From contig NZ_CALWUM010000024.1 in assembly GCF_944384765.1 (NCBI RefSeq), forward strand, positions 1 through 37,549: a DNA stretch of 37,549 nucleotides, written 5' to 3'. Positions 14,388 through 36,000 of the stretch are shown here, piece by piece. Made by a program: the position numbers and the translations under genes. The notes beneath the pieces are model-generated. The model saw only the letters and a list, made by a program, of their open reading frames with translations. It was not told the DNA's origin and did not search any database. The DNA is from an uncultured Agathobaculum sp. (GTDB lineage: Bacteria; Bacillota; Clostridia; Oscillospirales; Butyricicoccaceae). Numbering within the stretch: position 1 is the first letter of the stretch; the number at the start of each line of letters is the position of its first letter.

Positions 14388-14410
14388 CGCCCGGTTTTGC
14401 CGGGCGCTTT
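14388..14410 (+). terminator. Terminator behind the TepA-like gene
   Basis: CGCCCGG, TTTTG loop, CCGGGCG, then CTTT, starting five bases after the stop codon. Confidence 0.75.
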
Positions 14411-14538
14411 GATGCCGCGATGCGGTTTTATCTGCCCATCACGGCACACAATAATTGCGTTCGGGAGGTATCCGGAGCCAAATCTCAGCTTACTTTTTCC
14501 AGCCGGCCCCGCCGCACGTTTCTATCTCAAGGCACAAC

Positions 14539-14566
14539 AAAGGCCCCGTCACCCGACGAGGCCTTT
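14539..14566. terminator. Terminator-like hairpin at the end of the RNA candidate
   Basis: AAAGGCCCCGTC (14539-14550) and GACGAGGCCTTT (14555-14566) form a 12-bp stem with one G-U pair and a four-base loop. Leftward it is followed by TTTGTTGTG, rightward by TTTTACTT, so it may act in both directions. Confidence 0.7.
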
Positions 14567-15368
14567 TACTTCCAAATCTCCATAATCGCTCTTTTCCCAG
14601 CGGTTGGAGTGCCGCTGTTTTTCCGGTGCAGGCTATTTTTCCTGTTCCGCTGGCTCATCACAATGCTTTCACCATTGCTCCGGGCGGATCTTTTACGGAC
14701 TCCTGCTGTTTCCTGAAGTGCAATCCGTTTTCCCTGCGGGCATCTTCTCTATCTACCCCATATTGATGAAGAACCGATCATATACCTCTTTGGGGGATGC
14801 ATCTTCTTCTGACGGATTTGGGATGCGGTTCATCCCGTTTTCCTTCATCCTATGTTCACGGAACCCACCGGGCTGATGTTTTTGAATGAACATTTCCGGT
14901 TGGTTACCTTTACTTACACTCTGGGAACTCTATATCAATTTTTCATGCGTCACTTCTCGGCGGGTGATCGTTTCGATGCTGTCCTGCGTCGCCCGGACCA
15001 CTCTCAGCAAGTTTTGATATCATCTCCAGCTTGTGCTCTGATCCGCTTGCGCATCACCATACTCATCAGTATGCCCATCGGCCATCGGGTGTGCACGATT
15101 TTTGGCGTTTGGCAGGTATCGGTCGGATACTGTTTTTTCATTCGCCGACGCATTGGTTCAGGGTTCTTACGGTGTCTGGAACCTTACTTTCCTGCTGCCT
15201 CGATCCGCTTGCATCATCAGTAATGTTACACGGATGAATATTCACGAGGATAGCTTCCTCAAAGGTACCGTTCCTTACAATCTCAGAAGCCGATCGCGCT
15301 TTTCAGGCGGTTCGTTTTTTCGATGTGGAACTCGCTCATTTTTACAGCTATCACCTTGATCGTTTCGG

Positions 15369-15422
15369 TTACAGCGCCGCGGCGAGTCCCGCGAACGAAT
15401 AGGATGTCTCTTCTGTTACCAT
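15369..15422 (-). CDS. Possible 17-residue leader peptide in the RNA candidate
   Basis: Reading frame MVTEETSYSFAGLAAAL, with AGAGGTG four to five bases before the ATG. The 15 bases CCGCAGAAAGAGGTG around this site are identical to those in front of the recombinase gene. It lies about 130 bases into the predicted transcript. It may be a translated leader or a chance frame; its only support is the good ribosome binding site. Confidence 0.25.
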   Translation of the reverse strand: MVTEETSYSFAGLAAAL

Positions 15423-15554
15423 TGGACTCACCTCTTTCTGCGGAATCATTTGGCTTTCGCCAGCCCTTTTCAGAATGAGAAAGGGTTGCGCCTGTCTTGC
15501 AGGACCCCTGTCCTGCTTTCCTCTGGTGTTTGCCCTTTTCTTTTCTGTGACATT

Positions 15555-15583
15555 ATAATATCATCAAAACTGCACAATGTCAA
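15555..15583 (-). promoter_or_regulatory. Strong promoter of the RNA candidate
   Basis: Leftward TTGACA (15578-15583), 17 bases, TATTAT (15555-15560), with a consensus TATAAT overlapping it three bases further on. This is one of the best promoters in the window, yet no gene lies behind it on that strand for more than 1 kb. Confidence 0.75.
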
Positions 15584-15672
15584 ATGTTATTTTCCGTTTT
15601 TTAATGAGCATATTGCACGAAACATTTGTGTGCTTTTTAGCAGTTTGCCCCCTTCCCAAGCCAGCGGAAATT

Positions 15673-15681
15673 TGCTATACT
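15673..15681 (+). promoter_or_regulatory. Extended -10 promoter of the alcohol dehydrogenase gene
   Basis: TGC-TATACT. No good -35 box is seen at the usual spacing. The same nine bases occur in front of the second XRE gene (near 18592). Confidence 0.5.
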
Positions 15682-15738
15682 GTTATTGTTGGGTGTGTTA
15701 TATCCCCCATCGGAAATAGGAATAGCAACGCAGCTGTC

Positions 15739-15764
15739 AGGGGTCCCTTGCGGACCCCTTTTTT
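15739..15764 (+). terminator. Leader terminator in front of the alcohol dehydrogenase gene
   Basis: AGGGGTCC (15739-15746), five-base loop, GGACCCCT (15752-15759), then five more T residues. It lies between the promoter and the ribosome binding site AAAGGAGG (15767-15774), so it must be read through for the gene to be expressed. A CCCCC run at about 15703-15707 could pair with the AGGGG arm as an anti-terminator. Confidence 0.7.
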
Positions 15765-15781
15765 CAAAGGAGGAGACTTGT

Positions 15782-16939
15782 ATGGATATCTTCAGCTTTT
15801 ATATGCCTACGCGCCTGTATTTCGGCCACGGCGCGGTCAAAAAACTCGCGCGGGCGCGCCTGCCCGAGGGCCGCGGCCTGATCATCACAGGCGGCACCTC
15901 GACCACCCGCCTGGGCTATGTCGCCAAAGTGCAGGATGCGCTGGCCGAGGCCGGACACGATACCATCATTTATAATAAGGTGCAGCCCAACCCGACCATC
16001 GAGGGCGTGCGCGAGTGCGCAGCCCTGTGCCGCGCCGAGGGCATTGCCTTCGTCGTGGGGCTGGGCGGCGGCTCGTCGATCGACACCGCCAAGGCGGTTG
16101 CCATCATGGCCACGAACGACGGCGACTGGTGGGACTATATCCACGGCGGCACGGGCGGCGGCAAGCGCATTGCGAAGGCTGGCCTGCCCATCGTCGCCAT
16201 CCCGACCACCGCGGGCACCGGCACCGAGGCCGACCCGTTCACAGTCATCACCAACGGCGAGGAGAAGATCGGCGGCGGCGGCGAAAAGTGCTTCCCGACC
16301 ATTTCGATTGTCGACCCGGATTTTATGATGACCGTCCCGCCCCACCTGACCGCATACCAGGGCTTTGACGCGTTCTTCCATGCGGCGGAGGGCTATCTCG
16401 CCAAGACCGCCTCGCCCATCAGCGAGATGTTTTCGCTGAAGGCGATCGAGCTGATCGGCCGCTCGCTTGCCACCGCGGTGCACGAGGGCGGCAACGCCGA
16501 AGCGCGCGCGGATGTCGCGCTGGCCAACACGCTGGCCGGCTTTGTCGAGACCCTGTCCAGCTGCACGGGCGAACACGCGATCGAGCATGCGCTGAGCGCG
16601 TTCCACCCCAGCCTGCCGCACGGCGCGGGCCTGATTATGATCTCTAAGGCCTACTGGAGCCGCTTCTTTGATTCCGCAGGTGACCGTCTGGTTGCCATTG
16701 CCCGCGCGCTCGGCAGCAAGGATGCGGACAAGCCCGCGGACTTCATCACCGCGCTTGACACCATGCAGAAACGCTGCAATGTGCACGACCTGCGCCTGTC
16801 CGGCTACGGCGTCACGCCGGACGAGTTTGCCAAAATCGCGGACAATGCGTTTGACACCATGGGCGGCCTGTTCCGCGTCGACCCGCACGCGCTTACGCGC
16901 GAGGATGTCATCGCCATTCTGGAAGAAAGCTATAAGTAA
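15782..16939 (+). CDS. Iron-containing (group III) alcohol dehydrogenase
   Basis: A 385-residue cytosolic oxidoreductase of the Fe-ADH family, which interconverts alcohols and aldehydes or ketones using NAD(P)H. The nucleotide-binding GGGSSIDTAKA, the PTTAGTGTEA loop, the metal-binding Asp and His in GFDAFFHAAEGY and further histidines in GEHAIEHALSAFHPSLPHGAGL are present, so the Fe or Zn site looks complete. The length is normal. The substrate cannot be told; butanol-type and propanediol-type enzymes look alike. The ATG has AAAGGAGG eight bases upstream. It is monocistronic, with an intrinsic terminator in its leader, which suggests transcription attenuation, and a hairpin group behind it. 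Confidence 0.92.
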   Translation: MDIFSFYMPTRLYFGHGAVKKLARARLPEGRGLIITGGTSTTRLGYVAKVQDALAEAGHDTIIYNKVQPNPTIEGVRECAALCRAEGIAFVVGLGGGSSIDTAKAVAIMATNDGDWWDYIHGGTGGGKRIAKAGLPIVAIPTTAGTGTEADPFTVITNGEEKIGGGGEKCFPTISIVDPDFMMTVPPHLTAYQGFDAFFHAAEGYLAKTASPISEMFSLKAIELIGRSLATAVHEGGNAEARADVALANTLAGFVETLSSCTGEHAIEHALSAFHPSLPHGAGLIMISKAYWSRFFDSAGDRLVAIARALGSKDADKPADFITALDTMQKRCNVHDLRLSGYGVTPDEFAKIADNAFDTMGGLFRVDPHALTREDVIAILEESYK

Positions 16940-34879: not shown

Positions 34880-35215
34880 ACTCGGAGAGGCAAAGCCTTT
34901 ACCAGCAGAATTCTTTGACCGCCCTCCCGCCGGGAGGTGCCAAGGCCATACGGACAGCCGGGTCAAATGCCGAACATGGCAACTTTGTTGCCTTATTGAA
35001 TTTTATAAGTTGGCTGACTAAAAGCCGTGTGCCGCGGGCGCATCGCAACTTGTGAAACAATCAATAAGAGTAGTAAAAGTAAATTCTTGCTATATAGACT
35101 CTTTCCTCTTCCACAAACCAAACCCGTTCCGGCTTTCTTCTGCCGGACGGAAGAGAAGATTGCATTTCCTCAAGCTGGGACGCCGTGCGGACACCCTGCT
35201 TGGGGATTTTTTTGA
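34880..35215 (+). promoter_or_regulatory. Long structured leader of speD, candidate attenuator or riboswitch
   Basis: About 335 bases with no gene but many pairings. First three-way junction: TTTGACC/GGTCAAA (34914-34920, 34961-34967) around CCTCCC/GGGAGG (34923-34937) and GGC/GCC (34944-34959). Next GGCAAC/GTTGCC (34978-34992) with a T-rich tail. Second junction: AAGTTG/CAACTT (35007-35012, 35046-35051) around GCT/AGC and TGTGCC/GGCGCA (35028-35042). An extended -10 (TGC-TATATA, near 35088-35096) may start a shorter RNA. Then CTCTTCC/GGAAGAG (35106-35112, 35149-35155) encloses TCCGGC/GCCGGA. Last, AAGC.GGG pairs with CCC.GCTT (about 35173-35202) before GGGGATTTTTTT, ending 20 bases before the gene. 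No known riboswitch class was recognised. Confidence 0.6.
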
Positions 35216-35235
35216 TATTGTGAGAGGATATGGAT

Positions 35236-36000
35236 ATGCAGAACAAGCTCAAACTCTACGGGTTCAACAACCTGACCAAGGCGTTGTCCTTCAATATTTA
35301 CGATGTGTGCTACGCGAAAACCGAGCGCGAGCAGCGCGACTACATCGCCTATATCGACGAGCAGTATAACTCCGAGCGCCTGACCGGCATCATGGAGCAC
35401 GTCACCGAGATGATTGGCGCGCATGTGCTGCACATCTCCAAGCAGGATTACGACCCGCAGGGCGCGTCGGTCACCTTCCTGATCGCGGAGGAGCACATGA
35501 AGCCCGCCCTCGAGCCGGACACCATCGTCGCCCACCTGGACAAGAGCCATGTCACCGTGCACACCTATCCGGAATACCACCCGGATACCTGCCTTGCCAC
35601 CTTCCGCGTGGACATTGACGTGGCGACCTGCGGCGAAATCACCCCGCTGTCCACGCTGGATTTCCTGATCGGCTCGTTTGACTCGGACATCATCACCATG
35701 GACTACCGCGTGCGCGGCTTTACGCGCGATATCGAGGGAAAAAAGCTGTTTATGGACCACCAGATCACCTCAATCCAGGACTTTATCGACCCCAAGACGC
35801 TCGAACGCTATGATGCGTACGATCTGAACGTCTATCAGTCCAATCTGTTCCACACCCGTATGCTGGTCAAGGAGATCGATCTGCAAAACTATCTGTTCAA
35901 CACGGATATTTATGAGCTGCCACCCAAGACGCGGCTCAAGATCCACTCCGACCTGCGCCGCGAGATGATCGAAATCTTCTCAGGGAAGAACATCTACTAA
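35236..36000 (+). CDS. speD: S-adenosylmethionine decarboxylase, E. coli-type proenzyme
   Basis: Makes decarboxylated SAM, the aminopropyl donor for spermidine. The 254-residue chain is the long bacterial (class 1a) form, like E. coli SpeD, and not the short form of Bacillus and archaea. The proenzyme should cleave itself between Lys103 and Ser104 in [14 protein letters not shown], turning the serine into the pyruvoyl cofactor. [16 protein letters not shown] at the N-terminus closely parallels the E. coli start, which supports the ATG at 35236; AGAGG is eight bases before it, and the ATG two codons earlier is only two bases away from it. It is followed by a hairpin array and the decarboxylase gene. 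Confidence 0.95.

Follow-up and report, generated by a model that had tools for sequence, protein, structure and literature searches.

A conserved, predicted structured RNA of about 1 kb in Agathobaculum with mini-ORFs near both ends

What is produced from a stretch of about 1 kb that opens with a strong promoter, contains no long frame on its own strand and ends in a terminator-like hairpin? A sequence-only reading of this Agathobaculum locus had proposed a large structured RNA, with a decayed foreign gene as the alternative. We analyzed the full 37,549-nt stretch of contig NZ_CALWUM010000024.1 (hereafter the window), in which position p of the RNA corresponds to window position 15550-p. Our comparisons indicate that the ~1-kb unit is a conserved gene for a structured RNA, with a predicted transcript that runs from its own promoter to its own terminator (Table 1). 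The proposal of a large structured RNA was upheld: the unit is conserved across the genus with compensatory changes, its promoter is fixed and its end conserved, and it matches no Rfam family. Conserved mini-ORFs, which that reading had missed, change the likely mechanism.

Table 1. Window positions of the predicted RNA gene, its features and the divergent neighbouring gene
Feature	Positions	Strand	Basis or remark
RNA gene	15549-14539	-	start near 15549 inferred from promoter; end is the terminator hairpin
Promoter TTGACA (15583-15578), 17 bp, TATTAT (15560-15555)	15555..15583	-	11/12 matches plus upstream TG
5' domain	15434..15549	-	covarying hairpin 15516-15499, GCAGGAC-AGGG-GUCCUGC
Super-SD AGAAAGAGGUGAGUCC, near-complement of 16S 3' tail GGAUCACCUCCUUUCU	15424..15439	-	strongest site in 8/8 sequences scanned
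Mini-ORF 1, MVTEETSYSFAGLAAAL, 17 codons + stop	15369..15422	-	ATG kept in 22/22
Anti-SD strand GGACUCGCC within ORF 1, can pair with 15432-15424 (helix S)	15381..15389	-	100% of cells paired, 22 sequences
Hairpin GCUGUAACC/GGUGAUAGC, ORF 1 end paired with second SD-like site AAGGUGAU (15357-15350)	15347..15375	-	88.7% of cells paired
GCGAGUUCC, alternative partner of 15390-15382 (helix T)	15327..15335	-	100% of cells paired, 22 sequences
Multibranched domain 3	14945..15153	-	covariation counts
Tandem GAUG-loop hairpins GCC-GAUG-GGC and AUACU-GAUG-AGUAU	15059..15082	-	invariant in 22 genus sequences
Variable region, limits approximate	14622..14844	-	gap in relatives' DNA matches and alignment
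3' mini-ORF MEIWK	14566..14583	-	SD-like GAAAAGAG at 14596-14589
Terminator hairpin, 12 bp, AAAGGCCUCGUC-GGGU-GACGGGGCCUUU	14539..14566	-	fold
Iron-containing alcohol dehydrogenase, divergent neighbour	15776..16939	+	Pfam

Extent, distribution and folding of the RNA gene

The limits originally proposed for the unit fit these features, with the start of the RNA placed by its promoter. The near-consensus leftward promoter of that proposal was borne out, as the same hexamers with the same 17-bp spacing precede the RNA in all 23 genus loci (10-11/12 matches). Its terminator-like hairpin was seen again in the fold; the tail after the stem is GUUGUGCC, so that the U-tract is short, and a terminator scan did not list the hairpin at 14566-14539. 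At the level of sequence, the locus therefore has its own promoter and terminator, as expected of a large structured bacterial non-coding RNA. The RNA strand is purine-rich (61%) and its GC content (0.499) is below that of four neighbouring genes (0.586-0.681), both as first described. The fold of 1,000 nt has an energy of -310 kcal/mol (z = -3.3), which none of 20 shuffles reached. The three sense frames contain 14, 18 and 15 stop codons, and the longest stop-free run is 88 codons.

When the DNA of 149 relatives was searched, 23 of the 24 remaining Agathobaculum genomes gave a match to the RNA (the genus includes A. massiliense Marseille-P4005 and Agathobaculum sp. Marseille-P7918); G013 has just a contig-edge fragment of it, and G024 gave no match in this search. 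Relatives of ~300 nt, reached via short motif matches, occur in all six Butyricicoccus (g5) genomes searched (L025-L028, L131 and L132) and in genus g14 (two genomes, L133 and L134), and the variable region accounts for most of the length differences among relatives. An alcohol dehydrogenase gene is present in the locus (up to ~4 kb) in 23/23 genus and 6/6 Butyricicoccus sequences. The two g14 loci instead have a divergent asparaginase gene, which in the window is the next gene beyond alcohol dehydrogenase. Downstream of the RNA, the window has a Clp protease gene head-on (plus strand, convergent); no same-strand downstream gene is common to the loci examined, and the genes there differ among relatives. 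The locus looks like one inherited vertically rather than a mobile element. A phage origin was considered and rejected, because phage records had no match to the RNA and viral contigs none to the exact GAUG motif.

The region between the RNA promoter and the dehydrogenase gene (~15590-15700) and its equivalents are also partly conserved, with CCCAACAATA..ATTATA..CAAATT and GAAAAGAGGG-AAAACGCTGAAA, as if they held a control site common to both divergent promoters.

For the covariation analysis, 22 sequences of the genus were aligned, after two rows truncated at contig ends (L015 and L024) had been removed; the helices tested were proposed from local folding of these same sequences. In domain 3, 93.8% of cells are paired and 23 of 54 pairs have changed on both sides, compared with a mean of 7.7 in shuffled controls (0/500 reach 23) and at most 9 in slid structures. 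For the 5' domain the count is 6 of 17 pairs (shuffled 3.1; 9/500 reach 6), and five of the seven pairs of hairpin 15516-15499 have changed on both sides. The middle domain is too conserved to be informative on pairing: 4/41 pairs have changed on both sides when it is folded with helix T (31/500 shuffles reach that) and 5/41 with helix S (6/500), and the structure slid by +2 gives 7 such pairs. The covariation check suggested for this locus was made against a tree-based null, which is a re-implementation in R-scape style and not R-scape itself. Seven of the 112 proposed pairs reached E<0.05 (3/54 in domain 3, 3/17 in the 5' domain and 1/41 in the middle domain), and six slid controls per alignment gave zero pairs at this threshold. 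When all column pairs were tested by the same method, no pair reached E<0.05 (best 0.2); support from covariation thus depends on proposing the structure first. With the unrestricted test negative in this way, the aligned sequences nevertheless indicate a conserved, covarying secondary structure.

Across genera the second GAUG-loop hairpin reads AUACU-GAUG-AGUAU, ACACU-GAUG-AGUGU or AUGCU-GAUG-AGCAU, i.e., its stem covaries and its loop is fixed. A pattern for the tandem hairpins, which overlooks some known members, was found in 9 of 388 genomes of the order (five Agathobaculum, four Butyricicoccus), always inside this RNA.

Mini-ORFs and alternative helices

The first description of the unit as having no gene stands as far as a long sense frame is concerned; it holds only in part, because conserved short ORFs are present. 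The first of them lies behind a block, AGAAAG[AG]GGUGAGUCC, that matches the complement of the 16S 3' tail apart from two small offsets; the tail sequence was taken from G010 (L195), a genome of the genus. This super-SD is located ~111 nt from the predicted 5' end of the RNA, not at the very end. Its pairing with the tail is worth -17.6 to -20.9 kcal/mol in eight sequences (-18.8 in the window), and the best SD site in 60 shuffles of the RNA had a mean of -15.2 (sd 2.1, lowest -24.2). By itself this energy is unexceptional for such a purine-rich composition, and the conserved place counts for more. The mark of a STAB-SD, a sequence near the 5' side that is strongly complementary to the 16S tail, is thus conserved in place, with an energy within the shuffle range. 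SD-like sites overall are not enriched (13 vs a mean of 11 in dinucleotide shuffles, at -9 kcal/mol), which led us to reject a ribosome sponge of many SDs as a general property.

Mini-ORF 1 has 17 codons in 21 of 22 genus sequences and 20 in the other. Its relatives in other genera have 16-18 codons and similar ends (MVTEIEQQFRTARLAGAH, MVSTTEHQTKRLAGAR and MVSEYETFRTRRLAAVN), and the peptide across genera shows MV[TS]E at the start and, in most, LA near the end, with Ser3 written as TCA, TCG or AGT. Within the genus no synonymous excess was found (P=0.465).

The SD strand GGUGAGUCC can pair with the anti-SD strand inside this same ORF, and the resulting helix S can form in each of the 22 aligned sequences; L021 shows one compensatory change in it. 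Compared with 500 shuffled ORFs, the fraction of helices with an energy as low was 0.000-0.002 for six of the 22 Agathobaculum sequences and 0.002-0.032 for six Butyricicoccus sequences; in the two g14 sequences (0.062 and 0.066) the helix does not beat shuffles at 0.05. For other RNAs, in which the mini-ORF is MG or MGR, the corresponding pairing was no better than in shuffles. Helix T and helix S are mutually exclusive, so that the super-SD site looks like a switch. In the hairpin at the end of ORF 1, one of nine columns is unpaired in 21/22 sequences, and AGGUGA of the second SD-like site is kept in 22/22.

Several other frames were considered and set aside. The frame after AAGGUGAU (ORF 2, SEF...KSAIGF) shows slightly more synonymous changes than expected (P=0.0125 in one of the four tests made) and is not claimed as an ORF because its start codon is not kept. 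A fusion of ORFs 1 and 2 by frameshift is contradicted, as judged by eye, by L021, which has a 4-nt insertion, and by L020, which has a stop, and a frame starting in the GAUG hairpins (MGILMSM...) gave no codon signal (P=0.45).

At the other end of the RNA, MEIWK keeps its ATG in 22/22 sequences and is 4-6 codons long; the last base of its stop codon is also the base that opens the terminator stem. Eighteen of its 31 substitutions fall at third positions, and 14 are synonymous vs 7.4 expected (P=0.0005, four frames tested); such codon-like substitution would also suit a selected peptide. As judged by eye, the 3' mini-ORF is weak in Butyricicoccus and g14, with a CTG or TTG start, and the frame in L027 runs on. 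The conserved short ORFs by which a dual-function sRNA is recognized are therefore evident in starts and lengths, with a codon signal that is clear only for MEIWK.

The super-SD motif in other RNAs

A search for AGAAAGNGGTGANTCCNATGG in 84,980 species, each represented by one genome, gave 96 loci with 97 sites. The ORF end could be read for 96 sites; 70 of these are followed by an ORF of at most 30 codons, compared with 15 of 123 control AGGAGG-ATG sites in the same loci, and 14 by an ORF of at least 100 codons. These sites are not independent: 15 belong to the Agathobaculum RNA, three to Butyricicoccus relatives (L051, L084 and L085, assigned by their peptides) and 17 to Met-Gly-stop ORFs. 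Some sites are leaders of ordinary genes. A near-identical super-SD pattern was found in 26 of 394 genomes of the order, 17 of them of the same family, and in 2 of 245 of a class sample, one being the window's own. HD-domain-like genes of Agathobaculum (L147, L148 and L162) also have this super-SD at their start, which makes the motif an ordinary strong start site as well.

A similar leader, comprising a super-SD and a short ORF (MVK or MVR; 11 codons in L047), was observed in Clostridium hydrogenum, C. acidisoli, Hungatella and [Clostridium] aerotolerans (L031, L041, L047 and L063), before a gene that presumably encodes a bile-salt hydrolase. The presence of similar leaders before this gene in these four hosts suggests horizontal transfer. 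At another locus, an RNA of genus g10 contains between three and six super-SD-like units in a row, and behind several of them stands a minimal ORF, MGR, MGK or MG with its stop (L155, ~1000-1750; L177 and L178, ~1300-2300; also L033 and L076; g10 and look-alike named records). Its last unit is followed by an ORF of 17-18 codons, and the SD can pair back; the gene beside it presumably encodes a D-Ala-D-Ala ligase.

A separate group of RNAs, predicted to be ~270-370 nt long up to the terminator stem, occurs in genomes named Pseudoflavonifractor, Oscillibacter and Oscillospiraceae. Its 15 members (L037, L038, L044, L055, L058, L066, L067, L080, L082, L086, L094, L099, L104, L113 and L121) were picked by a Met-Gly-stop 5' ORF and similarity, and two of the 17 Met-Gly-stop loci were left out (L111, of 73 nt, and L053, unlike the rest). 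A promoter-like sequence stands 6-10 nt before the super-SD, the super-SD is at the predicted 5' end, and the Met-Gly ORF is too short for a peptide function. A trait for which the group was not selected is its 3' mini-ORF, which in 15/15 members has 7-8 codons, a TTG, GTG or ATG start and an upstream AGGT, and which stops 0-2 nt before the terminator stem in 15/15. The codon test for this mini-ORF was not significant (P=0.28) and the consensus fold is weak (3/30 pairs with both-sided change), and these RNAs are thus conserved mainly at their ends. Two of the loci scanned against Rfam (L055 and L066) gave no match. Common descent with the Agathobaculum RNA was rejected, as no match outside the super-SD fell below E=0.09. 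A recurring 16-nt near-match to the helix T strand, GAGC[AG]AGTTCC (E 0.24-0.32; RNA positions ~110-125 in L113 and L058, ~211-228 in L017 and L003), may be chance or a distant link.

In a scripted test covering the 42 of 69 mini-ORF loci in which the script found a terminator (the other 27 were left out), a 3' mini-ORF was present in 21 vs 6.6 expected from shuffles. As 12 of the 21 are Agathobaculum and five are of the Pseudoflavonifractor type, these represent few independent cases.

Candidate roles of the mini-ORFs and rival explanations

Conserved mini-ORFs behind very strong SDs make it likely that ribosomes sit on the Agathobaculum RNA. We favour, at a probability of roughly one half, a structured RNA gene of ~1 kb in which the mini-ORFs serve to bring in ribosomes, as a gate and a shield for the RNA, and not to produce useful peptides. 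Its direct support comes from the compared sequences: conservation, covarying structure, the super-SD, conserved starts and short ORF lengths, helix S as a possible pairing in 22/22 and the stop codon on the terminator stem. Transcription would begin at the RNA's own promoter and stop at its own terminator, and ribosomes would bind at the mini-ORFs; helix S would close the 5' site until a ribosome opens it. A 30S or 70S particle at the super-SD would then block 5'-3' decay by RNase J, and a ribosome jammed against the terminator would likewise block decay at the 3' end. The long structured body would be the part being preserved, with domain 3 and the GAUG-loop hairpins perhaps working as RNA, e.g., as a scaffold.

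Precedents for such protection have been described. According to PMC3997798, a strong 5' SD in Bacillus, even without a start codon, can act at a distance to stabilise long RNA that is not translated, and RNase J1 is blocked by ribosomes that are initiating (STAB-SD and hbs-type protection). In PMC8708949, a ribosome at a strong SD before a six-codon mini-ORF is said to protect the mRNA, and two-codon minigenes (the txe leader and others), comprising ATG, one codon and a stop behind an SD, are thought to be RNA-protective in cis. On the basis of these two accounts, we propose that the mini-ORFs load ribosomes. Like STAB-SD and hbs transcripts, the Agathobaculum RNA has a strong SD in its 5' part; unlike them, it has a helix that can close this SD, and a further mini-ORF on the terminator. 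In addition, STAB-SD and hbs stabilise mRNAs, whereas the protected body here would be a structured RNA with no protein gene. Similarly, two-codon minigenes are found in the leaders of protein genes, and the Agathobaculum and Pseudoflavonifractor-type mini-ORFs in stretches with no protein gene.

We regard as possible, if tentative, the wider idea that ribosome-capped RNAs represent a general, so far unrecognized stability mechanism in Clostridia, in which two mini-ORFs bracket transcripts with no protein gene. Such RNAs would have a super-SD mini-ORF in the 5' part and a stop abutting the terminator, with parked ribosomes capping both ends. The candidate cases are the Agathobaculum and Pseudoflavonifractor-type RNAs, which have different bodies, and a neighbouring genus has the tandem super-SD units.

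A rather unlikely rival is a dual-function regulatory RNA acting in trans, with peptides of 17 and 5 residues that have their own job. RNAIII is a dual-function sRNA, and SR1 and VcdRP are likewise stand-alone RNAs with a short ORF; dual-function RNAs with small proteins are already known. Unlike in SR1 and VcdRP, the Agathobaculum mini-ORFs, of 5 and 17 codons, lie near both ends of a 1-kb RNA. The similarity of the ORF 1 peptide across genera, with three different codons for Ser3, and the codon-like substitution in MEIWK both fit this rival. Against it stand the lack of a synonymous excess for ORF 1 within Agathobaculum, the overlap of this ORF's conserved part with helix S, and a 5' ORF of only Met-Gly in the Pseudoflavonifractor-type group. 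A function as a peptide would be most plausible for MEIWK.

Another rival, to which we assign the same low standing, is a structural RNA like OLE, ROOL or GOLLD, working as a scaffold or RNA-only assembly, in which the ORFs would be incidental or merely tolerated. This agrees with the size, the multibranched covarying domain, the lack of an Rfam match and the absence of a common downstream gene in the loci examined. It accounts poorly for a start codon kept in 22/22 and a short ORF length at both ends, for an SD-pairing helix possible in 22/22 and significant in 12 of 14 sequences tested singly (three genera), and for the recurrence of this arrangement of mini-ORFs in an RNA group whose resemblance is confined to the SD. 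The sequence-only reading had compared the locus with these three RNAs, and the comparison holds for size and ornateness only, because no Rfam family was matched. The whole window was scanned with Rfam 15 (4227 families, which we take to include OLE, ROOL, GOLLD, raiA, 6S and RNase P), and none was found in the RNA stretch at the gathering threshold; the Rfam search first suggested, run at E<=5 on 14400-15750, matched no family either. ARAGORN found 0 tmRNA or tRNA genes in the window, and the RNA is thus not recognized as a tmRNA.

The Agathobaculum RNA is a new family of a known kind, the large structured bacterial RNAs. GOLLD, ROOL and OLE resemble it in being stand-alone, long and heavily structured; GOLLD is often >800 nt and, in PMC12286853, ribosomes are reported to bind it in pull-downs. 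The Agathobaculum RNA differs from the three in having no covariance-model match and no phage match, in its conserved mini-ORFs, and in being located beside alcohol dehydrogenase and not beside tRNA islands, with no tRNA in the window. The raiA-motif RNA, or ModT, is likewise a conserved structured RNA of Bacillota including clostridia; in PMC11706538, ModT was probed over residues 19-210, which makes it far shorter, and the main text does not use the phrase 'open reading frame', whereas the Agathobaculum RNA has mini-ORFs. For the known RNAs compared here, the parts of papers covered report no mini-ORFs at both ends. No description of the Agathobaculum RNA or of the two-mini-ORF layout was found in the literature searched, a scope that leaves aside the supplementary tables of motif surveys and most subscription papers.

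Far less credible is a cis-regulatory leader or attenuator, in which translation of a mini-ORF would decide passage of the terminator or expression of the divergent alcohol dehydrogenase. The alternative helices S and T around ORF 1, the stop codon on the terminator stem and the same neighbour in 23/23 genus and 6/6 Butyricicoccus loci could be taken that way. Against this, the downstream genes vary, the window's next gene (Clp protease) is head-on, and the divergent neighbour in the g14 genomes is asparaginase. The decayed gene put forward at the outset, to which short frames in all phases had pointed, can practically be discarded, because substitutions follow base pairs with compensatory changes, the promoter is fixed, the end is conserved, and the stop-free runs of the sense strand are short and differ among homologs.

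The new family, which includes genomes of named isolates, joins the few known long structured bacterial RNAs. Its layout makes an old question directly testable, namely whether ribosomes can be protective or gating parts of an RNA coding for no protein. AGAAAGNGGTGANTCCNATGG can be used as a DNA search key for such RNAs, since it stands before mini-ORFs at 70/96 sites, with some sites being ordinary gene leaders.

Elsewhere in the window, the Rfam scan at the gathering threshold gave its single match, to SpF59_sRNA (RF02440) at 34916-34973 on the plus strand (64.8 bits vs a cut-off of 37.2), upstream of ORF 35230-36000, whose product is presumably an S-adenosylmethionine decarboxylase.
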